This document shows positions 2,283-21,833 of a stretch of DNA of 24,956 nt, one piece after another; position 1 is the first letter of the stretch, and the number at the start of each line of letters is the position of its first letter. This stretch comes from a virus. The position numbers and the translations under genes were made by a program. The notes under the pieces are model-generated. The model did no database searches. It saw nothing but the letters and a program-made list of their open reading frames with translations, and had not been told where the DNA came from. The stretch is from IMG/VR virus record IMGVR_UViG_3300013132_004237, positions 1 to 24,956 of that record; one strand, given 5' to 3'.

Positions 2283-2307
2283 AAAAGGAGGTTTAATCCT
2301 CCTTTTT
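2282..2307. terminator. Bidirectional intrinsic terminator between convergent genes
   Basis: A perfect 10-bp stem (AAAAAGGAGG, 2282-2291, with CCTCCTTTTT, 2298-2307) closes a 6-base loop. It gives a T-run on the + strand and, from the A-run, a T-run on the minus strand as well. It lies between the peptidase gene and the convergent clpC-like gene. The last codons of the latter (KKKED and stop) are inside the stem. Confidence 0.85.
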
Positions 2308-4353
2308 CTTTCTTACTCTTTTTTTAGGTTCCGGTTTAATTATCTCTTTAAGATCGACATATTCATCTTCACCATTTTTCTTAATAAATAAAATATATTC
2401 TTTTTCTTCCTCAAGTTCATTGGTTAGAATTTTTTCTGAAATCAAGTCTTCGATTTTGTCTTGAATTGCCCTTTTTATTGGTCTTGCGCCATACTGATCA
2501 TCAAATCCAATTTTAGATATGTAATCAATAAGACAATCTTCATAACCAATATTATATTTCATGTTATTAACTCGAAGAATTAATTTGTCAACTTCCAATT
2601 TAACAATCCTATTAATGTCGTCTTTTTGAAGTGAGTTAAAGATAACAACTTCATCAATTCTATTTAAAAATTCAGGTGCAAAAAACTTACTTAATTCTTT
2701 TTTCAAAACATCTCGTTTAAGTTCTTCTTCCAAGATTTCATTATTTCTTGACTTAAAACCAACACCGGTTCCAAAATCTTGTAATTTCTTAACTCCGATA
2801 TTAGAAGTCATAATTATTAAACAATTTTTGAAATTAATTTTTCTACCCAGACCATCAGTCATATGACCATCGTCCAACATTTGAAGTAATGTTGAAAATA
2901 TGTCTTTATTTGCCTTTTCAATCTCGTCAAACAAAATAACAGAGTATGGTTTATTTTTAACTTGTTCCGTTAATTGACCACCTTCATCGTGACCAACATA
3001 TCCTGGAGGCGAACCGATTAATCTAGAAATTGTGTGTTTTTCCTGATATTCACTCATATCAACCCTAATAAGACTATCCTCACTCCCAAAGATTTCTTTT
3101 GCCAATTGTTTTGCCAAAAATGTCTTACCCACACCAGTTGATCCCAAAAATATAAACGAACCAATAGGTCTGTTTGGATCTTTGATTCCAACTCGATTTC
3201 TTCTAATTGATTTTGAAATCTTTTTAACGGCTTCTGCTTGACCGATGATTAATTTATTTAAAGTATCCTCCAAACTAACCAATGAATTTTTTTCATCAAG
3301 ATTTATTTTTGATACCGGTATCTTTGTCATATTAGACACCACTTCATAAATTAAATCTTCTGGTATTTCTCTTTTGTTACTTTTTAAGTCTTGTTCAAAT
3401 TTATTTTTTTCAACTTCTAACTTTATATTAACAGTTTTTTCACGGTCTCTTAATTCGGCGGCTAATTCATATTTTTGTTTTTTGATTACTTCCGCCTTTT
3501 CTTGTTTAATTGCAACAATTTCAGCTTTTAACTTTTCAATACTTTCAGGAAGTTTAATATCAATTTGCATTCTTGACCCAACCTCATCTAAAATATCAAA
3601 CGCTTTATCCGGAAATTCTCTATCAGTAATATATCTATCGGCCAATTCTACAAACAACCATAATACCTCATCACTATAATGAACCATATGATGATTTTCA
3701 TACTTACTTTTACTTAATTTCAGGATTTCAAAAGTTTCACTTTTAGTTGAAGGGTCAACAATTATTTTTTGAAATCTCCTTTCTAACGCTCCGTCTTTTT
3801 CAAAATTTTTTCTGTACTCGTCTAATGTTGTTGCCCCAATACATTGTATTTCACCCCTAGATAATGCCGGTTTGAATATGTTTGAAGCGTCTAATGAACC
3901 CGAACTATTCCCAGCACCTACCATAGTGTGAATTTCATCGATAAAAATAATGATGTTAGGATTTGCCTGTAATTCTTCAATGATCACTTTCATCCTTTCT
4001 TCGAATTGACCTCTATATTTTGTACCTGCAACAATAGAGTTCATTTCTAATGATACGATTCTTTTATCCGCCAAATTTTTTGGGCATTCCCCAGAATGAA
4101 TCATCATTGCAAGACCCTCAACAATTGCCGTTTTACCAGCTCCAGGTTCACCAATAATGATTGGGTTGTTTTTTTTTCTTCGAGATAAAATTTGGGCAAT
4201 CCTTATAATCTCTTTTTTTCTTCCAATTACAGGGTCTAATTTGCCTTGTTCTGCAAGTTTATTAAGGTCTTTACTAAAATTATCTAACACAGGTGTTGTA
4301 TTATCACCCTTTTTTTTGTTTTTGTCTCCATCATCTGCGAATTCAATTGCCAT
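2293..4353 (-). CDS. clpC: ClpC-type AAA+ unfoldase lacking the N-domain
   Basis: ATP-driven Hsp100 protein unfoldase, 686 residues against roughly 810-850 for cellular ClpC. AAA+ domain 1 has Walker A GEPGAGKT (68-75), pore loop around Y113 (GTKYRGQF) and Walker B IIIFIDEIH (134-142). A short middle domain carries a UVR motif (about 285-315, KYELAAELRD), typical of ClpC rather than ClpB. Domain 2 has Walker A GSTGVGKT (about 404-411), pore Y452 (PGYVG) and Walker B VILFDE (about 472-477). The ClpP-docking tripeptide is kept as V531-G532-F533, so it should be able to feed host ClpP. The two N-terminal Clp repeats are missing: the protein starts in the linker just before TPVLDNF, and an in-frame stop lies upstream, so this is not a wrong start. 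The linker and TPVLDNF resemble Bacteroidota ClpC, suggesting capture from a host. Substrate choice must differ from that of cellular ClpC, because adaptors normally bind the N-domain. Confidence 0.93.
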   Translation of the reverse strand: MAIEFADDGDKNKKKGDNTTPVLDNFSKDLNKLAEQGKLDPVIGRKKEIIRIAQILSRRKKNNPIIIGEPGAGKTAIVEGLAMMIHSGECPKNLADKRIVSLEMNSIVAGTKYRGQFEERMKVIIEELQANPNIIIFIDEIHTMVGAGNSSGSLDASNIFKPALSRGEIQCIGATTLDEYRKNFEKDGALERRFQKIIVDPSTKSETFEILKLSKSKYENHHMVHYSDEVLWLFVELADRYITDREFPDKAFDILDEVGSRMQIDIKLPESIEKLKAEIVAIKQEKAEVIKKQKYELAAELRDREKTVNIKLEVEKNKFEQDLKSNKREIPEDLIYEVVSNMTKIPVSKINLDEKNSLVSLEDTLNKLIIGQAEAVKKISKSIRRNRVGIKDPNRPIGSFIFLGSTGVGKTFLAKQLAKEIFGSEDSLIRVDMSEYQEKHTISRLIGSPPGYVGHDEGGQLTEQVKNKPYSVILFDEIEKANKDIFSTLLQMLDDGHMTDGLGRKINFKNCLIIMTSNIGVKKLQDFGTGVGFKSRNNEILEEELKRDVLKKELSKFFAPEFLNRIDEVVIFNSLQKDDINRIVKLEVDKLILRVNNMKYNIGYEDCLIDYISKIGFDDQYGARPIKRAIQDKIEDLISEKILTNELEEEKEYILFIKKNGEDEYVDLKEIIKPEPKKRVRKKKED

Positions 4354-4884: not shown

Positions 4885-6744
4885 ATGGGAAAAATTATTG
4901 GTATTGATTTGGGTACTACAAATTCTTGTGTTGCCGTAATGGAGGGCAAAGAACCTGTAGTAATTACAAACAGTGAAGGGAAAAGAACAACACCATCGGT
5001 TGTTGGTTTTATTAAAGACGGGGAAAGAAAAATCGGTGACCCGGCCAAACGTCAGGCGGTTACAAACCCCAAAAAAACGATTTATTCAATTAAAAGATTT
5101 ATGGGAACATCATTCACTGAATCAAAAAGTGAAATTGATAAGGTACCATATAAAATCGTAAATGAAAAAAATTCACCACGAGTTGACATCGATGGTAAAA
5201 ACTTTTCACCACAAGAAATATCTGCGGCCATTCTTCAAAAAATGAAACAAACCGCAGAAGATTATTTAGGTCAAAGTGTGACTGAAGCCGTAATTACCGT
5301 TCCGGCATACTTCAATGACGCACAAAGACAAGCAACAAAAGAAGCTGGCGAAATTGCCGGTCTTACTGTGAAAAGAATTATCAATGAACCCACAGCCGCC
5401 GCTTTAGCTTACGGTCTTGATAAACAATCGAAAGACATGAAAATTGTCGTATTCGACTGTGGTGGTGGAACTCATGACGTATCAGTATTAGAATTGGGTG
5501 GTGGTGTTTTTGAAGTTTTGTCAACTGATGGTGACACACATCTTGGGGGTGATGATTTCGACCAAGCTATTATTGATTATTTGGCAAGTGAGTTCAAAAA
5601 TGAACATGGTATGGATATCACCCAAGATCCAATCGCACTTCAACGACTGAAAGAAGCTGGTGAAAAAGCTAAAGTAGAATTATCTTCGTCTCCACAGACA
5701 GAAATTAATTTACCTTATGTAACCGCGGACGCTTCTGGACCAAAACACCTTGTAAAAACAATTACAAAAGCCAAATTTGAACAATTGGTGGAACCTTTAA
5801 TTCAAAGAACAATTAAACCTTGTGAGTCAGCATTGAAAAATGCGGGTCTAAAACCAAGTGATATCGATGAAATTATTCTTGTTGGTGGATCGACACGTAT
5901 TCCAGCAATACAAGATGCGGTTAAGAAGTTCTTTGGTAAAGAACCATCTAAAGGTGTTAATCCAGATGAAGTGGTTGCTTTGGGGGCTGCGATTCAAGGG
6001 GGTGTATTGGCTGGAGATGTAACGGATGTATTATTGTTGGATGTGACTCCACTTTCTTTAGGTATTGAAACTATGGGTGGTGTATTTACAAAATTAATTC
6101 CAGCCAATACAACCATACCAACTAAAAAATCAGAAACATTTACAACCGCATCTGATAATCAATCCACAGTGGATATTCATGTACTCCAGGGTGAGAGAGC
6201 AATGTCAAAAGATAATCGAACTATTGGTAAATTCCATTTAGATGGTCTCCCACCAGCAATGAGAGGTGTACCTCAAATTGAAGTAAGTTTTGACATTGAC
6301 GCGAATGGTATTATTCATGTGTCCGCAACAGATAAGGGTACCGGAAAATTACAATCAATTAGAATTGAATCTTCTTCTGGTTTGTCAAAAGACGAAATCG
6401 AAAAAATGAAAATGGAGGCCGAAAAAAATGCTGAATCCGACAAGCAATTAAAGGAAGATGCTGACACATTAAATTCTGCCGACTCATTAATTTTTAGAGT
6501 TAATAAATCAATTAAAGATTTGGAAGGGAAAATTAGTGATGAAGAAAAATCAGATGTTGAGTCCTCTATTAATAAATTAAAAGAAGCGTTTGATAAAAAA
6601 GATGTTTCAGAAGTTAAGATTTTAACTGAAGAAGTTAATCAAAAATTTCAAACAATAAGTGAAAAACTTTACGCATCTACAACCACAAACGACGAAGTTA
6701 CGGATCAAGATTTTGAGAACGTTGACTACCAGGAAGTAAAATAA
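4885..6744 (+). CDS. dnaK: DnaK (Hsp70) chaperone, full length
   Basis: ATP-dependent Hsp70 that binds and releases unfolded segments. At 619 residues it is close to cellular DnaK length. The nucleotide-binding domain has [18 protein letters not shown] at the N-terminus, K70 in YSIKRFMG, the [10 protein letters not shown] segment (169-177) and the adenosine motif LVGGSTRIP (332-340). The interdomain linker [11 protein letters not shown] (381-391) and the substrate-binding domain follow, ending in a helical lid and a C-terminal YQEVK similar to the EEVD/EEVK-type tail. SGPKHLVKT (285-292) is typical of Bacteroidota DnaK. The phosphate-2 motif reads DCGGGTHD (191-198) instead of the usual DLGGGTFD; the threonine and aspartates are kept. 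No dnaJ or grpE is present here, so host co-chaperones would be needed. It is co-transcribed with the UVR gene and ends at a strong terminator. Confidence 0.97.
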
Positions 6745-12333: not shown

Positions 12334-14106
12334 ATGGCTTTAACAAAAGAACAACTTACTATTGAATATGTGAAATGTATGAGAGATACTCCGTATGCCC
12401 TTCGTACGTATTTGCAAACTTACGACAATACAGTTCAAAAATATGTACCTTTGGAGTTATTTCCAGATCAGGTTACACTTTTAAATGATTATGAAAATTA
12501 CGAAGAAAATATAGCACTTAAATATCGTCAAGCAGGGGTATCCACTGTGACTGCCGCTTGGATATCTAAAAGATTGGTTTTTGCTAAAAAAGAAAGACCT
12601 GAAAAAATTCTAATTATTGCTAACAAACTAGATACTTCTATGGAAATGGCAAATAAAATTAGATCATTTGTTGATCAATGGCCAAAATGGGTAGGTGCTG
12701 GTTTTTCTGTTGATAAAAATTCACAAAGACATTATAAGTTATCAAATGGATGCGAAGTAAAGGCGGTTGCAACATCACGAGATGCACTTCGTGGTTATAC
12801 CCCAACAATTCTTATTTTTGACGAGGCCGCGTTTATCGAAGCTGACAATGACTTCTGGGCAGCTTGTATGGCTTCCTTATCAACGGGTGGTAAGGTAATT
12901 GTTGTATCTACACCAAACGGATACGATCCAATTTATTACGATGTTTATAATCAGGCGGCAAAAGGTATGAATAATTTTAAAGTTACGGAAATGTTTTGGT
13001 GGAGAGATCCAAGATACACCAAAGATTTATTTTTGGTACCAACCGATGACATGGTCGATTATTTACTTAATAAAGATGAAAAAGATCATTCACAAAATAT
13101 TTCATTCGGACACATTGATCCTTATGAAAGAGATCATGAGGAATTAAAAAAATATTTTCAGCAAGGGTACAAACCATGTTCATCTTGGTATGAAAAAATG
13201 GTTAAAAAACTTAAGTATGATAAGAGAAAAATTAACCAGGAATTAAATTGTGAATTTTTAGGTTCCGGAGATAACGTATTTCACTCGAAAGAACTGGATT
13301 ATATCAAAGATAATTTACTACAGGAATCACCAACCAAAGTGATGGGAAATTCACTTTGGATTTGGAAGGATCCACAAGAAGGTCATAAATATATTATGGG
13401 AATTGACGTATCTCGTGGTGATAGTGAAGATTTTTCATCAATTCAGATTATTGATTTTGATGAAAGAGAACAGGTTTTAGAATATGTCGGAAAAATACCA
13501 CCGGATTCATTGGCGGAAATTGCATATAAATGGGCGGTAATGTATAATGCTTTTATTGTAATTGATATCACTGGTGGAATGGGTGTTGCAACAAGTAGAA
13601 AATTACAAGAGATTGGGTATAAAAATCTTTATGTTGATGGTGTTGATACTACAAACATTTGGAATTATAATCCGAAAGCTCAAGATAAGATTCCCGGAAT
13701 TAATTTCAACAATAAACGAGTTCAAATTATTGCAGCATTTGAAGAATATGTTAGACATAGATTCAAAATTAGAAGTGTCCGTTTATACAATGAAATGAAT
13801 ACATTTATTTATCTGAATGGGAGACCTGACCACCAAAAAGGTCAACATGATGACTTGATTATGGCAATTTCTATGGCAATTTATGTTGGTGAGGTGGCGT
13901 TTCAAAAATTAGAAAAAGTCACTCAACAAACAAAGGTCATGATTGAATCATGGACCGTATCAAATAATGAGTCGGCACATAAACAAATACATTTTGACCC
14001 CGTATTACCGAATACAAATTTGATGAATGAAAGAATGGGGTATAACACAAATCCATCAAAGAATGACTATATGAAATATGGTTGGTTATTTGGTGGCAAA
14101 AGATAA
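12334..14106 (+). CDS. Terminase large subunit (gp17-like)
   Basis: ATP-driven DNA packaging motor and headful nuclease, docking on the portal. The N-terminal ATPase has a Walker A variant KYRQAGVST (63-71) as in T4-type terminases, Walker B TILIFDEAAF (158-167, D163 and E164) and the coupling motif VVSTPNG. The C-terminal RNase H-like nuclease has its acidic residues in MGIDVSRGDSED (D358), FIVIDITGG (D411) and GQHDDLIMA (D506/D507). At 590 residues it is close to T4 gp17 (610). No small terminase gene is recognisable nearby. The gene starts after a terminator and promoter-like element and is followed six bases later by a 65-residue gene, probably co-transcribed. Confidence 0.97.
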   Translation: MALTKEQLTIEYVKCMRDTPYALRTYLQTYDNTVQKYVPLELFPDQVTLLNDYENYEENIALKYRQAGVSTVTAAWISKRLVFAKKERPEKILIIANKLDTSMEMANKIRSFVDQWPKWVGAGFSVDKNSQRHYKLSNGCEVKAVATSRDALRGYTPTILIFDEAAFIEADNDFWAACMASLSTGGKVIVVSTPNGYDPIYYDVYNQAAKGMNNFKVTEMFWWRDPRYTKDLFLVPTDDMVDYLLNKDEKDHSQNISFGHIDPYERDHEELKKYFQQGYKPCSSWYEKMVKKLKYDKRKINQELNCEFLGSGDNVFHSKELDYIKDNLLQESPTKVMGNSLWIWKDPQEGHKYIMGIDVSRGDSEDFSSIQIIDFDEREQVLEYVGKIPPDSLAEIAYKWAVMYNAFIVIDITGGMGVATSRKLQEIGYKNLYVDGVDTTNIWNYNPKAQDKIPGINFNNKRVQIIAAFEEYVRHRFKIRSVRLYNEMNTFIYLNGRPDHQKGQHDDLIMAISMAIYVGEVAFQKLEKVTQQTKVMIESWTVSNNESAHKQIHFDPVLPNTNLMNERMGYNTNPSKNDYMKYGWLFGGKR

Positions 14107-14358: not shown

Positions 14359-17300
14359 ATGACTTTTGTAATAATTAATGACCCAATAGGTGGATTATCA
14401 TCTACCGTTAGATGCGGGTCCAACAATAACGCAAAATCGGCATATTCTACCGTGAGTGGTGGATTACAAAATACTTCGTCTGGAAAGTACTCAACAATTT
14501 CAGGCGGTTATTTGAACTCAACAACTAAAGATTACTCAACAATTGCTGGTGGGTTATTTAACACAACCACAGATTTATTTGGTACTATAGGTGGTGGATC
14601 AAGAAATACAGTCCAAAAAAATTATTCCACAATTTCTGGTGGTTTTTCTAATACAACTAACGGATGTTTTTCTACTTTAGTTGGTGGTAGAAACAACATT
14701 GCTCAATCTAATTATTCCACAATACTTGGTGGATGTAATAATATTGCAAATGGTATCGGATCTATGGTGTATGGTTTTGATAACGTGGCAAATGGTATAA
14801 ATTCTGTGGTATTAGGTGGTTCTAATATCGTAGGAAATAACAACGACACTGTATATGTTCCTTATTTAAATATTTCTTTTTTACAGACTGGATCTTCAGT
14901 AAATAATTTAGGTATTGATATCACTGGAAATGTAGTTGCTAGTGAATTACAACCGGATGTTTACATTACAGGTGGAACTATAGACTACAACACAGGGGAT
15001 TTAACTTTGAACAATAACAACTCAACTTCTGTTGTGATTTCTGGGTTTGAAAACACTTACTCGACTGGAGGAACTTTTGTTTCAAACACATTAACAATCG
15101 AAAATAATGATGGATCTTCATTTAATGTCACAGGATTTACTTCTGGAGGGGGGTGTGGATACGAATCGGTTTCATACATGGAACTACAAGATTTGGTAAC
15201 CGGTGGAACTCTTACTCAAGGTTCTTATTATTTAATTAATGATTTCCAAACTTGTTATGATCAACCAGATTTTAATTACAATGGAGATCCAATAACAACC
15301 CCAGAAACATATCACGTATCAGACATCGAGCAACTTGTTGTGTTTGCAACATCTGAACAAAGTTTTTCACCATTTGCATTTAGCATTTCACATCCTAACG
15401 ACAAAATAACATATGATTTTTCATTTAACACAACCGAAAATACTGGAAGTCCTGCTAAAGGAAGAATTACAGAAAGAATTGACGAGTTTAACAATAGAAC
15501 AGATTACGATCACAGATCAATATTATTTAAAAGATATAAAAGTTATTTTCAAGACGGTAATATCAATGGTAGAATAATTGAAATGAATAATGGTCTTGTA
15601 ACAGGATTAAATACAAACTTTACGGGTAATTTAATTACTGGAGATACAATTTTTATTATGTCACAAATCCCGATGATGTATGAAGTAATAAGTATTGATT
15701 CTGTAAGTGGGATGACAGTTGCAGGTTTTAACTATCAAAACTTTTCCGATCCTTTTGGTTTTGAGTGCGAATTAATGTTACCTTCAGGTTTAGAACCTAT
15801 AAGTGGGACTTTATATTATTTTAACGATGTTGGTAGTAATGAAATTATTGACGGTGGTGATGACATGTATGATGGTGGAAATAGAATCTATACAGACTTA
15901 TTTAGTAATGTCCCATATACCCACACACAAATGACCGATCCGCCTGTTAATGAATTAAACCAAGCGGTATTTGGTGACTTTGTTTATGATGGTACGGTAC
16001 AAAGTGGTGATACGTATTTTAATTTAGGGTCCACTTATTTTACAAATTCTTACCCTGGACTTTTTGTTATGAGTGCTTATGATGTTGAAATTACCGATTT
16101 CGAGATAGATGGTAATTTGGGTGCTGATGGTGATGGTCAGGCAGATACTTACGATTACACATTGACTTTTAGTGGAATTGATTACTCTGTTTATTGTAAA
16201 AGAGTATGGGGTGCTCAAGATCCATCTGTTAACCACATTTATATTGTTGATACGATTAATAATAATATTATACATAACATTGGTTTTTCAACAAATGATG
16301 ATTTAGATACAATTTCAAACTTAACAGGAGTTACTCAATTACATTATTTATTATTTGCACTCGCAGGGGGAGTCAAACCAACAAACACCCAAATTGAAAA
16401 CGTGGTTGAAAGTTATTTGACTTTAATTGAACCAACAGATATAAACATTACTTTATCTAATTTGAATTCAAACTTCACAGGGGTAACTTCTAATTTACCA
16501 GAAAATAATTCGGCATACAAATCTTTAAATTACAAACAAACCAATTTAACAGGAGATACCGAAAGTTTTGTTGAGTATTTAACTTTTCAAACCCTTTCAG
16601 ATGATATAATTAATAACTATATTGGAAATTATGCTAACACATATAATTGGGATAATAATTCATTTCTACTATCAAATAATGTTTTTTATGGTAATTTGGA
16701 TTATGTAAATAACACTTTTGGAAATTCTTGTTTTAATAATACATTTGATGACGATTGCACAAACAACATTATTGGTAATTTCTTTTATAATAATACCACT
16801 GATGATGATTTTGATGATAACCTAATTGGTAACAACTTTCATGACAATTATATTACCGCAAATTTCCGAAGAAATAGAATTGGTGATAATTTCAATAATA
16901 ATACTATTATAAACGGTTCTTTTGACAGAAATGACATTGGTAATCAATTTGAAAATAACGTAATAACTGATGGGGATTTTGAAAATAACAAAATAGGAAA
17001 CGTTTATGACAATAATATTATAAATTCTGATTTTTATAAAAACGACATAGATAGCGAATATAATAATAACAGAACATACTCTCAGTTTTACGGAAATCAA
17101 ATTGGTAATGGATATAATGGGAATAAAATATATTCACAATTTTATGTGAACAATATCAGTGAACTTTTCAATAATAATATAATTGGTGACCAAAATAGTA
17201 TTGTATCTTCGAATTTTTACGGAAACAAGATTGGAAACTTTTTCGAATCAAATACCATTACAACTAGTTTTTATGAAAATGAAATACTTGATTATTTTTT

Positions 17301-17727
17301 AAGCAATACCTCTTCTGGAGATTTCTACAAAAACAGTGTAAGTAATGATTTTCAAAATAACACATTGTTAGGAATATTTGCTTACAACAAAATTGGTAAT
17401 AATTTTACTACTAACAATATCGGTGATGGTTTTGGATATGGTATTAGTACAAGTCAAGGAAATGTAATTGGAAATTATTTTTACAACAATACAATTGGTG
17501 AATATTTTTATAATAACGTGGTTGCTGATGGATTTTATTCAAACACAGTTGTTGATTTTTTCCAATTAAATGATGTTAGGGTCTCAATTTTCTCGACTGA
17601 TTTTAGTAGTGCTACACATGTTTATGGGGATTATAATTGTACTTTATTTAAAAACTCAATACCTTTATCAAGATTGTCTTACTATGATGGTGCCGACTTA
17701 TTACAAATTACAAATGTTGACGCATAA
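14359..17727 (+). CDS. Large repeat adhesin or fibre-like protein, 1122 residues
   Basis: Probable surface fibre or adhesin. Residues about 29-160 hold eight to nine 15-residue repeats of the type YSTISGGxxNTTxxx, like the coils of a left-handed beta-roll in trimeric adhesin heads. A middle part (about 270-750) contains GSYYLINDFQTCYDQPDFN and a region with RTDYDHRSILFKRY, a domain seen in some phage and giant-virus proteins. Residues about 755-1085 hold around thirty F/Y-x-N-N-x-I-G repeats of 9-10 residues (FENNKIGN, FYKNDIDS), which should form a parallel beta-helix. This second part is unusually rich in Asn, Tyr and Phe. There is no catalytic motif, signal peptide or chaperone tail that I can see. 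Lying between terminase and portal, it is a likely virion host-contact or whisker-type protein; that role is inferred. Confidence 0.82.
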   Translation: MTFVIINDPIGGLSSTVRCGSNNNAKSAYSTVSGGLQNTSSGKYSTISGGYLNSTTKDYSTIAGGLFNTTTDLFGTIGGGSRNTVQKNYSTISGGFSNTTNGCFSTLVGGRNNIAQSNYSTILGGCNNIANGIGSMVYGFDNVANGINSVVLGGSNIVGNNNDTVYVPYLNISFLQTGSSVNNLGIDITGNVVASELQPDVYITGGTIDYNTGDLTLNNNNSTSVVISGFENTYSTGGTFVSNTLTIENNDGSSFNVTGFTSGGGCGYESVSYMELQDLVTGGTLTQGSYYLINDFQTCYDQPDFNYNGDPITTPETYHVSDIEQLVVFATSEQSFSPFAFSISHPNDKITYDFSFNTTENTGSPAKGRITERIDEFNNRTDYDHRSILFKRYKSYFQDGNINGRIIEMNNGLVTGLNTNFTGNLITGDTIFIMSQIPMMYEVISIDSVSGMTVAGFNYQNFSDPFGFECELMLPSGLEPISGTLYYFNDVGSNEIIDGGDDMYDGGNRIYTDLFSNVPYTHTQMTDPPVNELNQAVFGDFVYDGTVQSGDTYFNLGSTYFTNSYPGLFVMSAYDVEITDFEIDGNLGADGDGQADTYDYTLTFSGIDYSVYCKRVWGAQDPSVNHIYIVDTINNNIIHNIGFSTNDDLDTISNLTGVTQLHYLLFALAGGVKPTNTQIENVVESYLTLIEPTDINITLSNLNSNFTGVTSNLPENNSAYKSLNYKQTNLTGDTESFVEYLTFQTLSDDIINNYIGNYANTYNWDNNSFLLSNNVFYGNLDYVNNTFGNSCFNNTFDDDCTNNIIGNFFYNNTTDDDFDDNLIGNNFHDNYITANFRRNRIGDNFNNNTIINGSFDRNDIGNQFENNVITDGDFENNKIGNVYDNNIINSDFYKNDIDSEYNNNRTYSQFYGNQIGNGYNGNKIYSQFYVNNISELFNNNIIGDQNSIVSSNFYGNKIGNFFESNTITTSFYENEILDYFLSNTSSGDFYKNSVSNDFQNNTLLGIFAYNKIGNNFTTNNIGDGFGYGISTSQGNVIGNYFYNNTIGEYFYNNVVADGFYSNTVVDFFQLNDVRVSIFSTDFSSATHVYGDYNCTLFKNSIPLSRLSYYDGADLLQITNVDA
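14443..14830 (+). repeat. 15-residue (45-bp) coding repeats, YSTISGG type
   Basis: About eight to nine tandem protein repeats, each starting Y/F-S-T-I/V-x-G-G and having N at position 10. The period is a strict 15 residues for the first seven, with the last ones shortened by a residue. DNA copies are diverged (recurring words such as tactcaacaatt), so selection on the fold rather than recent duplication keeps the pattern. Confidence 0.85.
16620..17615 (+). repeat. Asn-rich beta-helix coding repeats (F-x-N-N-x-I-G)
   Basis: About thirty imperfect repeats of 9-10 residues, most simply paired into coils of about 19 residues with alternating IGN and non-IGN halves. At DNA level this gives recurring attggtaa and aataat words. 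The pattern is continuous and in frame. Confidence 0.85.
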
Positions 17728-17783: not shown

Positions 17784-19598
17784 ATGGAAGAAAATAAGAA
17801 ATTAACCGTTTGGCAAAGATTATCCAAAACCTTTGGACCTAATTCGTTGTTGGGTCAAGATATACCAACTTATAGGTTTGATAAGAAAGAACTATTAAAA
17901 ACTAGAGATAAAAATCAATACGAAAAAGAATTACTCCAGTCTCAACAATCTTTATTTCTATCTAATCAATGGGCCAAAATTGAGAGTAATCTATATACTC
18001 AAGCAATTTACTATGAACCAACTAGATTAGCGTCCTTTTACGATTACGAATCAATGGAGTTTACCCCAGAAATTTCAACAGCATTAGACATTTACGCTGA
18101 AGAATCGACAACACCAAATGAAGATGGTCACGTATTATCTATTTATTCCGAATCAAAAAGAATTAAGGCCATATTGGCAGATTTATTTAATAATACTTTA
18201 GATATCAATACAAACTTACAAATGTGGATCAGAAACACATGTAAGTATGGCGATAATTTTGTGTATATGAAATTAGATCCAGAAAAAGGTATTATTGGTG
18301 CGGTTCAATTACCCAACATCGAAATCGAAAGATTAGAGAGAGGTATGAAACCAAAAACACAAAACACTGAAGTCAAAACTGACGAAAAAGGTTTGAAGTT
18401 TAACTGGAAAGAAAAAAATATGGAATTTAATAGTTGGGAAGTTGCACACTTTAGACTATTAGGTGATGATAGAAAATTACCATATGGTACATCAATGTTA
18501 GAAAAGGCAAGACGTATTTGGAAACAGCTTGTTTTGGCCGAAGATGCAATGTTAATATACAGAACATCCAGAGCTCCTGAAAGACGTGTGTTTAAGGTAT
18601 TTGTTGGTAACATGGATGACAAAGATGTCGAGGCTTATGTTCAAAGAGTCGCCAACAAATTCAAAAGAGATCAAATTGTTGATAATAAGACCGGTAATGT
18701 TGATTTAAGATTTAATCAAATGGCGGTTGACCAAGACTACTTTATTCCTGTACGAGATGCTACACAAACAATGCCAATAGAAACATTACCTGGTGGTACA
18801 AACTTATCTGAAATTGCAGATATCGAATATATCCAAAAGAAACTTGTAACCGCATTGAGAATACCTAAAGCATATTTGGGTTTTGAAGAACCAGTTGGTG
18901 ATGGAAAAAATCTATCATTATTGGATATTCGTTTTGCAAGAACAATCAACAGAATTCAAAAAAATATTTTATCAGAATTAAATAAAATTGCAATTGTACA
19001 TTTATTCCTTTTAGGATTCGAAGACGAACTTCAAAACTTTACATTAGGGTTAAATAATCCATCTAAACAAGCAGATCTTCTAATGGTTGATGTTTGGAAA
19101 GAAAAGGTATTATTATATAAAGATTTGGTTTCTGAAATTCCTAATTCAATTGCACCTACTTCAGCAACTTGGGCTAAAAAACATATATTTGGATTCTCTG
19201 ATGAAGACATTAAATTAGATGTACAAAGAATGAGAATGGAACGAGCAGTTGCCGCTGAATTAACAAATACCGCAACAATTATTTCACACACAGGTATGTT
19301 TGATCAAATAGACAAATTATATAAAACTGTATCTGGAGCTACTGAAGGAGCTGCGGCTGAAGGTGGAGATGAAGGATTAGGAGGTCTAGGAGGACCACCA
19401 TCACCACAATCAGGACAAAAATCACAACCATCAGGACAACCACAAGGGACAGAACCTGGAGGACCGGCCGGGGGTCTTCCGGAAAACAAAATAAATTTGG
19501 AAAAATTAATTTTAGAATCTGAAGAAGACGACTTTTTTCAACGAAACGGATCTTTAGGTGAAATGGAAAAAGAATTATTGCGAATATTGAAAGATTAA
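17784..19598 (+). CDS. Portal protein (gp20-like)
   Basis: Dodecameric portal vertex protein that nucleates head assembly, docks terminase and lets DNA in and out. It is 604 residues against 524 for T4 gp20. Family signatures are YEPTRLASFYDYESMEFTPEI split over about residues 77-97, the DIYAEEST segment, and the strongly conserved block LPYGTSMLEKARRIWKQL followed by EDAMLIYRTSRAPERRVF (about 251-275). IPKAYLGFEE lies in the crown/stem part. The extra length is a Gly/Pro/Gln-rich linker (about 525-570) and a charged C-terminal helix ending KELLRILKD, perhaps a contact for scaffold. The 56-base spacer ahead holds only a weak promoter-like TATTTAAT (17747-17754). The start has no Shine-Dalgarno sequence. 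Confidence 0.96.
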   Translation: MEENKKLTVWQRLSKTFGPNSLLGQDIPTYRFDKKELLKTRDKNQYEKELLQSQQSLFLSNQWAKIESNLYTQAIYYEPTRLASFYDYESMEFTPEISTALDIYAEESTTPNEDGHVLSIYSESKRIKAILADLFNNTLDINTNLQMWIRNTCKYGDNFVYMKLDPEKGIIGAVQLPNIEIERLERGMKPKTQNTEVKTDEKGLKFNWKEKNMEFNSWEVAHFRLLGDDRKLPYGTSMLEKARRIWKQLVLAEDAMLIYRTSRAPERRVFKVFVGNMDDKDVEAYVQRVANKFKRDQIVDNKTGNVDLRFNQMAVDQDYFIPVRDATQTMPIETLPGGTNLSEIADIEYIQKKLVTALRIPKAYLGFEEPVGDGKNLSLLDIRFARTINRIQKNILSELNKIAIVHLFLLGFEDELQNFTLGLNNPSKQADLLMVDVWKEKVLLYKDLVSEIPNSIAPTSATWAKKHIFGFSDEDIKLDVQRMRMERAVAAELTNTATIISHTGMFDQIDKLYKTVSGATEGAAAEGGDEGLGGLGGPPSPQSGQKSQPSGQPQGTEPGGPAGGLPENKINLEKLILESEEDDFFQRNGSLGEMEKELLRILKD

Positions 19599-19621: not shown

Positions 19622-20338
19622 ATGAAATTCGGTCTTCTAAAAAGTAAAATAGAAAAATATTTAGTTGAATCTTACAAAGGAAAAAATTTCAAAGATTCAA
19701 TGTTTGTCTTTGATGAATTAATCTTGAAGAATAAAAATTTATCCAAACTTTTTTATTTATATGATGAATTATCATCGAACAAGTCATTAAGTGAATCAGT
19801 TGCAAATCAATACATAAACGAATCTATTACCATATTCGAAAACACAATAAATAAAATTTCTAAAAATCAGATTGATGAAATTCAATTGTGGGTTGGTCAT
19901 GTAATAACTAAAAACAACTATTGTGACATAGACAACCTATTTTCATCAAATGTATTAACTCTTGAAAATAAAATAGAAAGTAGAAAAGTTATCTTAGAAA
20001 ATTTGAAAAAGTCGTCAATCAAAGAAGATCTTATTGAAAATGTTAGTTTGAACACTTTAGTTGAGGCGGCAAATAAAACGGTAAATAACTATATTAATGG
20101 ATTAGATCCATCAAGTAAAAAAAGACTACTTAAAGTTTTATCGGAAAGTGATTCTAAATTACAAACAAAATATGAAATATTAAAAGAATCAGTTGTTGAG
20201 AAATTAGAGGATCTAAAATCTAATGAATCAGAAACTGATGTGATTAGTAGAATCGATGAAACAATTCAAAAATTATCAAATGAAGAATACAACAAAATTG
20301 AATACTTTAAATTGTTCGAATTGAATAAAAATCTTTAA
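19622..20338 (+). CDS. Helical protein in the prohead-core gene position
   Basis: 238 residues, almost entirely predicted helix, with charged coiled-coil-like stretches and many Lys, Glu, Asn and Ser residues (for example KIEKYLVESYKGKNFKDSM near the start and LEDLKSNESETDVISRIDE near the end). I do not recognise the family. It lies between portal and prohead protease, where T4 has the small prohead core genes 67 and 68, and T4 core proteins are also helical and charged. A core or portal-associated role is thus plausible from order alone. Its stop overlaps the end of the minus-strand bS21 gene by four bases. Confidence 0.72.
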   Translation: MKFGLLKSKIEKYLVESYKGKNFKDSMFVFDELILKNKNLSKLFYLYDELSSNKSLSESVANQYINESITIFENTINKISKNQIDEIQLWVGHVITKNNYCDIDNLFSSNVLTLENKIESRKVILENLKKSSIKEDLIENVSLNTLVEAANKTVNNYINGLDPSSKKRLLKVLSESDSKLQTKYEILKESVVEKLEDLKSNESETDVISRIDETIQKLSNEEYNKIEYFKLFELNKNL

Positions 20339-20523
20339 TTATTATTGTTGAATTTTTTCTGAACGTAGGCGGCCTTTTTATTTTGTTGTCGTTTGACAAC
20401 AGACTTTTTAGTAAATTCTCGTCTATCGTTCAAAATTGAATTTTGTCTGGTTTTGATAACCTTACTTTTTAATTCCTTTATCGCCCTTTCGATATCGTTT
20501 CTTTTTACTTTTACAATTAACAT
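20335..20523 (-). CDS. rpsU: Phage-encoded ribosomal protein bS21
   Basis: 62 residues matching bS21 over the whole length: MLIVKVKRNDIERAIKELKS at the N-terminus, then RREFTKKSVVKRQQNKKAAYVQKK. The MLIV start, the REFTKKSV block and KKAAYVQ are characteristic of Bacteroidota bS21. It should bind the small-subunit platform near the 3' end of 16S rRNA. In Bacteroidota that site, with bS18 and bS6, hides the anti-Shine-Dalgarno sequence, which fits the A-rich, Shine-Dalgarno-free starts of this phage. The tail is NNNN instead of the usual charged end. It runs against the surrounding head genes, has a TAAATTTG (-7 type) element upstream, and overlaps the convergent gene by four bases. It may swap into host ribosomes to favour phage messages; that effect is inference. 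Confidence 0.92.
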   Translation of the reverse strand: MLIVKVKRNDIERAIKELKSKVIKTRQNSILNDRREFTKKSVVKRQQNKKAAYVQKKFNNNN

Positions 20524-20558
20524 ATACTTTTGAATAGTTTTATATTTGATATATACTT

Positions 20559-20566
20559 CAAATTTA
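20559..20566 (-). promoter_or_regulatory. Bacteroidota-type -7 element for bS21 (TAAATTTG)
   Basis: On the minus strand TAAATTTG fits TAnnTTTG and lies 35 bases before the bS21 start codon. I see no good TTTG at the -33 position, so the promoter call is tentative. A TATATTTG on the + strand at 20541-20548 fits the same consensus for the other direction. Confidence 0.35.
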
Positions 20567-20610
20567 CGTATTTTTTCTAAAAATAAACTATTTAAGTATG
20601 AAAAAGTTTT

Positions 20611-21078
20611 ATGAAAAAAGGCAAAACCTCAAAAATAAGTGGTTTTAGAACTTCAAAAGTAACTTACGGAACTGTTGATTCCAAAGAATTTAAATCACTC
20701 TATTTAAACATCCAAACCTGGGTAGAACCCAAAAAAGTGGTTGACAACTGGCAAAGACTTGTATTAAACACAAATCGGTCCATCAAACATTCAGTTTATA
20801 ATAATTTAGATAAATCAATGTTTGACGACAAATTTATTGTAGATATGGATTTAAGAACCAGTGGATTACAACCCAAAAAAAAATCTTTTATGAATTTAGA
20901 AATAAATTTATTTTTATCACAAGATATAGATTTCAAATCTGTAAAATTAAAAAGATCATTAAAAAAATTAACCAAAGATATTTATGATAATGTTTTTATA
21001 AAAAACGAAAACTTCAAATTTTATCTCACCAAAAACGGCAACACCAAAAAAACTATTATAAAAACCGAACTTGTTTAA
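20611..21078 (+). CDS. Hypothetical protein, 155 residues, basic
   Basis: Not recognised. It is a lysine-rich protein with alternating strands and helices: SKVTYGTVDSKEFKSLYLNI near the start, DKFIVDMDLRTSGLQPKKKS in the middle, and KLKRSLKKLTKDIYDNVFIK then FYLTKNGNTKKTIIK at the end. There is no signal peptide or membrane segment. An ATG at 20598 is out of frame and gives only a short peptide, so the start at 20611 is preferred. It sits between bS21 and the prohead protease. Its position and basic character would suit a head-assembly factor or nucleic-acid binder, but no motif supports either. Confidence 0.72.
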   Translation: MKKGKTSKISGFRTSKVTYGTVDSKEFKSLYLNIQTWVEPKKVVDNWQRLVLNTNRSIKHSVYNNLDKSMFDDKFIVDMDLRTSGLQPKKKSFMNLEINLFLSQDIDFKSVKLKRSLKKLTKDIYDNVFIKNENFKFYLTKNGNTKKTIIKTELV

Positions 21079-21104: not shown

Positions 21105-21833
21105 ATGAAAATATTAGGACCCAACGAAATTGGAAAAGGTATTCTTGTCGAATACGATGCCGGATATATAAATCCAATGGATAGAAGAAATCTGGATTTA
21201 ATTAGAGAAAACAAAACTTTTTTGGACTACTCAAAACCTTTTGAATTCTATGCGGTTCTTCAAAAATATAATACCGCAAATAGAAATGGTAGAGTGTATC
21301 CTGAAAAGATATTAAAAAGAGAAGCCGACAATTATAAAAAAATGATTGATAAAGGTGTTGCGTTGTCAGAGTTGAATCACCCAGAATCTTCTTTGATTGA
21401 TTTGGATAGGGTTTCACACGCAATTACTGAAGTATGGTGGGAAGGTCCGGTTCTTCTTGGTAAATTGAGATTATTGACAAGCCCCGGTTTTCACGAAAGA
21501 GGTATTGTTTCAACAAAAGGTGATTTAGCCGCTAACTACCTTCGTCAAGGAGTTACATTAGGTATTTCTTCTCGTGGAGTTGGTTCACTTAAAAAAGTTG
21601 GTGACCAAAACGAAGTCCAAGATGATTTCGAATTAATTTGTTTTGACTTGGTATCATCTCCATCCACACCTGGAGCTTACTTATTTGTTAATAAAGATGA
21701 TAGAATGAAATTTGAGGAAAACTTGGGTGAAGAAAAAAATATAAATTTGGAAAGAGCCACTGGTATGAATACAAGTTCGATTGATAAAACCAAAAGTTTA
21801 ATGGATAAATTATCCGCATTTCTTGATAAATAA
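21105..21833 (+). CDS. Prohead core protease (gp21-like)
   Basis: Serine protease of the T4 gp21 type (herpesvirus-assemblin-like fold), 242 residues, that cleaves scaffold, capsid and itself during head maturation. Signatures are NRNGRVYPEKIL (60-70), the catalytic His in SELNHPES (H92), the catalytic Ser in LGISSRGVGSL (S155 or S156), and the following FDLVSSPSTPGAYLF (180-194). The C-terminal 45 residues (after NKDDRMKFEENLGEEKN) are charged and probably removed by self-cleavage. It lies in the T4 order portal - core - protease - scaffold - capsid. A likely cut site is visible in the capsid protein (INE/A, residues 58-61). Confidence 0.95.
   Translation: MKILGPNEIGKGILVEYDAGYINPMDRRNLDLIRENKTFLDYSKPFEFYAVLQKYNTANRNGRVYPEKILKREADNYKKMIDKGVALSELNHPESSLIDLDRVSHAITEVWWEGPVLLGKLRLLTSPGFHERGIVSTKGDLAANYLRQGVTLGISSRGVGSLKKVGDQNEVQDDFELICFDLVSSPSTPGAYLFVNKDDRMKFEENLGEEKNINLERATGMNTSSIDKTKSLMDKLSAFLDK

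Follow-up and report, generated by a model that had tools for sequence, protein, structure and literature searches.

A reversed phage bS21 gene without a Shine-Dalgarno sequence and its possible escape from host feedback

The window analysed here, that is, the whole stretch of 24,956 bases from an IMG/VR virus record, carries a gene for the ribosomal protein bS21 on the reverse strand of its head-gene region. This gene belongs to a phage clade kept under purifying selection, and its leader is lacking the extended Shine-Dalgarno (SD) sequence that precedes rpsU in the Flavobacteriales. Provided that the host is Flavobacteriales-like, the missing SD would place the phage gene outside the feedback loop of the host. 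That such a feedback-free bS21 occupies the ribosomes and prevents replenishment of the host copy appears quite possible to us, if somewhat short of an even chance.

Gene identity and layout of the locus

The encoded protein matches Pfam PF01165 (Ribosomal_S21) with 34.8 bits (E 1.4e-8), exceeding the gathering score of 27, and its closest relative of solved structure is F. johnsoniae bS21 (7jil_z, E 6e-7), whose Tyr54 stacks on A1534 of the 16S rRNA (7JIL). The aromatic residue expected at this position in the Bacteroidia type is present as Tyr53 in the window protein, and the initial annotation of the uninterrupted ORF (Table 1) as a complete bS21 of Bacteroidota type thus holds. Since the NCBIfam equivalog TIGR00030 is matched with 24.7 bits, under the cut-off of 28.95, the protein is a divergent bS21 member, homologous to cellular S21 without being a certified equivalog of it.

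Table 1 Features of the bS21 locus and of the surrounding head-gene region (window coordinates)
Feature	Position	Strand	Remarks
Terminase large subunit (TerL)	12334..14106	+	phrog_5989, E 1.6e-25
Portal protein	17784..19598	+	phrog_213, E 8.5e-64
g238, convergent neighbour	19622..20338	+	238 aa, function not assigned; overlaps bS21 stop by 4 nt
Phage bS21 gene	20335..20523	-	62 aa, complete ATG..TAA ORF; Pfam profile and solved relative
Tyr53 codon	20365..20367	-	aligned with F. johnsoniae Tyr54; coordinate calculated from the ORF
Terminator-like hairpin and T tract, for the head-gene strand	20382..20403	+	inside bS21 coding sequence
Divergent gap with bS21 leader	20524..20610	-	87 nt, without SD; conserved TAnnTTTG and TATCAA block
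Core of bS21-specific leader element, TATATCAA	20546..20553	-	conserved leader comparison
g155, divergent neighbour	20611..21078	+	155 aa, function not assigned; ORF list
Head maturation protease	21105..21833	+	phrog_207, E 3.5e-41

The gene is antisense to portal, g238, g155 and protease, and its opposite-strand position between portal and protease, recognised at first from the sequence, is borne out by the phrog matches of the flanking genes. Downstream of the protease, the forward strand continues with a 71-aa gene, a 526-aa gene (22206) and an ORF from 23856, which is cut by the window end and is MCP-like by position only; likewise judged from position only, the head-gene order resembles that of T4 genes 20-67-68-21-22-23. 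A PDB search with the fold model of g155 (pLDDT 84) gave no match at E <= 0.001. Between TerL and portal, a repetitive Asn-rich protein of 1122 aa is encoded (14359-17727, +), which is possibly surface or fibre-like. The same fragment also contains a ClpB/ClpC-like ATPase (2293-4353, -) and a full-length DnaK (4885-6744, +), both judged by eye from their translations; chaperones and Clp protease have also been mentioned for bS21 phages (Chen et al. 2022, PMC9723584).

Collecting IMG/VR loci via the neighbour genes of bS21 yielded 159 loci, 143 of which contain bS21, always opposite to every detected neighbour (143/143). In 38 distinct loci the layout recurs, with a convergent overlap of mostly 4 nt and a divergent gap of 79-92 nt. 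The phages described by Chen et al. (2022, PMC9723584) infect freshwater Bacteroidetes, form five clades and reach up to 331 kb; their bS21 is reversed within the TerL/MCP/protease/portal region, for which a ribosome hijack was proposed. The window shares with them the reversed bS21 between two hypothetical genes of this region (its MCP being assigned by position only), the aromatic residue equivalent to Tyr54, a divergent N-terminal helix and a clade-variable C-terminus. The antisense placement, initially regarded as notable, is therefore the published standard and, being conserved throughout, neither accidental nor unique; moreover, the term operon is too strong, since the region was found not to be transcribed as one operon (PMC9723584). 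As both the layout and the hijack idea are already in the literature (Chen et al. 2022), the window locus is one more member of the published group with nothing essential different. A further criterion for that group is a TerL at least about 70% similar to those of its phages (PMC9723584); the window TerL has less than 30% identity to the best matches listed in the phage collection. The present analysis adds to the published description the absence of an SD, a leader element particular to bS21, a hairpin within the coding sequence and gene copies in decay; autoregulation, promoters and terminators are not mentioned in the main text of Chen et al. (PMC9723584). In the uncultured phages LR756502 and LR745206 (635-642 kb), bS21 is 46-48% identical and equally without SD directly upstream, but it points in the same direction as the small neighbouring ORFs; the reversed layout is therefore not common to those phages.

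Inside the bS21 coding sequence, hairpins like that of the window occur in 32 of 86 distinct sequences, with 6.1 expected from synonymous shuffling and the signal being localised, although these counts come from related sequences and are hence not independent. One reading is that the reversed bS21 may terminate the head transcript arriving from g238.

Conservation, loss and residue pattern

The window bS21 has 202 relatives among the IMG/VR viral contigs, and the median pairwise dN/dS of 87 distinct bS21 coding sequences is 0.19, exceeding 1 in only 1 of 2083 pairs; the phage gene is under purifying selection and therefore not a chance ORF. In the phylogenetic tree, a branch supported with 100/99 separates phage from Bacteroidia bS21, with all phage proteins in one clade, so that a single acquisition suffices; finer forks have no resolution owing to the short alignment. 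The tree is thereby compatible with one acquisition by an ancestor of the freshwater Bacteroidota-phage lineage.

Some members of this lineage have lost the gene. Four loci (L299, L302, L312, L315) retain both neighbours without bS21, which rules out that bS21 is tied to them; the first codons of bS21 (MLIINVKR) and its leader persist there on the minus strand, adjoining a new gene that is accompanied by a repeat array. In L311, bS21 is no longer recognisable, and what is left of it is leader-like sequence only. Because of these losses, bS21 is dispensable for some lineage members and not essential for their lifestyle. The bS21-less relatives contain a dispersed multi-copy gene of about 135 aa (MKIIITENQYKLIKEN...WLDEVYNLRGIT), both in the bS21 slot and elsewhere (gene or array positions L312:3245-3425, L346:4333-4527, L347:77-280, L388:1874-2243 and L409:1859-2224), which is absent from the window. 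Its last 36 nt are repeated behind the gene as a CRISPR-like array (repeat GTTGGATGAGGTCTACAATTTAAGGGGARTCACAMC) with a period of mostly 64-69, up to 6 copies and 52 distinct spacers of mostly 29-32 nt. A search of about 690 Bacteroidia genomes, allowing up to 3 mismatches, did not detect the repeat, and no target was found for the spacers tested. The array is reminiscent of type VI-B direct repeats or of RNA-based anti-CRISPRs.

At the position equivalent to Tyr54, all of the 79 distinct phage proteins carry Tyr (71), Phe (4) or His (4). Compared to 83 distinct host proteins, the conserved phage-specific differences cluster at window residues 8-40, while K39, S41, V42, R45, K50, A51, Y53 and Q55 are the same as in hosts; hence the C-terminal half, which touches the 16S 3' tail, is largely common to phage and host, and the N-terminal half is phage-specific, the same pattern as in the published comparison (Chen et al. 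2022, PMC9723584). F. johnsoniae bS21 (7JIL) aligns over residues 1-56 including the A1534-stacking tyrosine, but differs from the phage protein by a one-residue deletion in the latter near position 10, by phage-specific residues 17-40 and by the extended SD of its gene. An alignment with host bS21 at the contacts to the 16S 3' end had been suggested as a check in the initial annotation, and it reveals these residues, Tyr53 included, to be kept; judged from them, the window bS21 plausibly enters host ribosomes. The Asn-only tail highlighted in the same place is indeed present in the window, but is not conserved and forms the most variable part of the protein (NNNN, NNNNN, FNQN, FKND etc.), which rules it out as a functional adaptation.

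Leaders and autoregulation

In F. johnsoniae, the extended SD of rpsU is used by ribosomes without bS21, resulting in autoregulation (McNutt et al. 2023, PMC9976891). We found an extended SD in 80/80 rpsU leaders of those Flavobacteriales closest to F. johnsoniae, with a median SD:anti-SD pairing energy of -18.3 kcal/mol (range -13.2 to -20.9), whereas 38 phage bS21 leaders pair with a mean of -1.3 kcal/mol, compared to -1.1 for shuffled sequences. In wider sets, strong SDs (pairing energy <= -8 kcal/mol) are present in none of 71 phage leaders and in 9 of 30 rpsU leaders from diverse Bacteroidia, limiting the feedback argument to Flavobacteriales-like hosts. It should also be noted that the missing SD could merely reflect the phage-wide use of SD-less leaders.

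This general use was seen correctly from the beginning: an SD precedes 0 of 21 window genes and, in a 290-kb relative, 2 of 322 (2.06 expected). The conclusion drawn from it, namely that SD-less, A-rich leaders are the basis for choosing phage messages, does not stand. Over 120 kb of a Flavobacterium genome, an SD precedes 0/81 genes and the mean A content at -15..-1 is 50%, and the phage set compared with it has 1/265 and 52%; as Flavobacterium leaders are equally SD-less and A-rich, these two features alone cannot label a message as coming from the phage.

The phage bS21 leaders have an element of their own, TAnnTTTG in 25 of 34 distinct leaders followed by TATCAA in 34/34, commonly ATATATATCAATATAA. 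The TAnnTTTG block resembles the Bacteroidota -7 box, from which we infer a putative role as promoter or leader. The decamer of the bS21 leader was rejected as a phage-wide element, since its other copies are not in leaders of this kind but seem to fall within coding sequence. The bS21 element is unlike the motif upstream of about half of the phage genes with a non-coding leader, a promoter-like sequence ATATTTATA situated mostly 10-30 nt before start codons (L091-L105); TATTTAT is found in 76 of 154 upstream regions versus 12.5 expected and 33 on the antisense strand. In the window, this motif scores well at the TerL, MCP and g238 leaders, and the bS21 leader is at background (p about 0.57), which speaks against its sharing the head-gene motif. 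A degenerate version of that motif in bS21 leaders is possible, a few relatives having closer variants.

Discussion

Based on the above, a phage-adapted bS21 made from its own reverse-strand leader would replace host bS21 on the 30S subunits, where the kept C-terminal half with Tyr53 would bury the 16S 3' tail together with bS18 and bS6, so that occupied ribosomes remain SD-blind. Having no extended SD, unlike the rpsU of Flavobacteriales, the synthesis of the phage protein would not be shut off as ribosomes fill; with the anti-SD hidden, translation of host rpsU would stay low and phage bS21 would build up at the expense of the host copy. The altered N-terminal half, located on the mRNA-facing side, may in addition adapt initiation to the late messages of the phage or lower the translation of the host. 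A stronger version, in which the SD-free bS21 fills bS21-less ribosomes, hides the anti-SD, silences rpsU replenishment and thereby locks a phage-marked state, we hold only tentatively and with considerable doubt.

In favour of the feedback-free model, the bS21 of pelagiphage HTVC008M, likewise phage-encoded but reportedly acquired from a Pelagibacter host and tested only in E. coli, was incorporated into E. coli 70S ribosomes (PMC6375957). The ribosomes carrying it had only about 5% activity in vitro (PMC6375957), which counts against the model, as does the loss of bS21 in some relatives. The same low activity is what would be expected if phage bS21 poisoned host ribosomes late in infection; we consider this very improbable, because the E. 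coli assay is heterologous, the synthesis of late phage proteins has to continue, and phage bS21 is transcribed late and highly together with the capsid genes (PMC9723584). This late co-expression with structural genes rather speaks for specialised ribosomes as proposed by Chen et al. (2022) and in the initial annotation, where the phage-specific N-terminal half, conserved among the phages, would make swapped ribosomes prefer phage late messages; such a preference is unlikely, phage and host messages being separated neither by SD use nor by A content. Alternatively, the phage could simply top up a limiting exchangeable bS21, keeping ribosomes fully active late in infection with unchanged selectivity. 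The kept anti-SD-contact residues are in line with such a supply, as is the slower initiation of F. johnsoniae ribosomes without bS21 on SD-less mRNAs (PMC9976891), the class to which nearly all phage genes belong, but for pure supply the N-terminal half would not need residues that are both phage-specific and conserved, and we regard it as quite unlikely.

Of all ribosomal proteins, bS21 is the one most often carried by phages (PMC9976891), and the question whether phages make specialised ribosomes is touched by the present locus. If the tentative stronger version of the feedback-free model were true, the phage gene would be an answer to the counter-defence speculated on by McNutt et al. (PMC9976891). 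For F. johnsoniae, an rpsU'-gfp reporter has been published, as have strains in which bS21 is mutated or expressed conditionally, and the difference between an autoregulated host rpsU with extended SD and a phage bS21 without SD makes the so far vague idea of a hijack testable by reporter in this organism.
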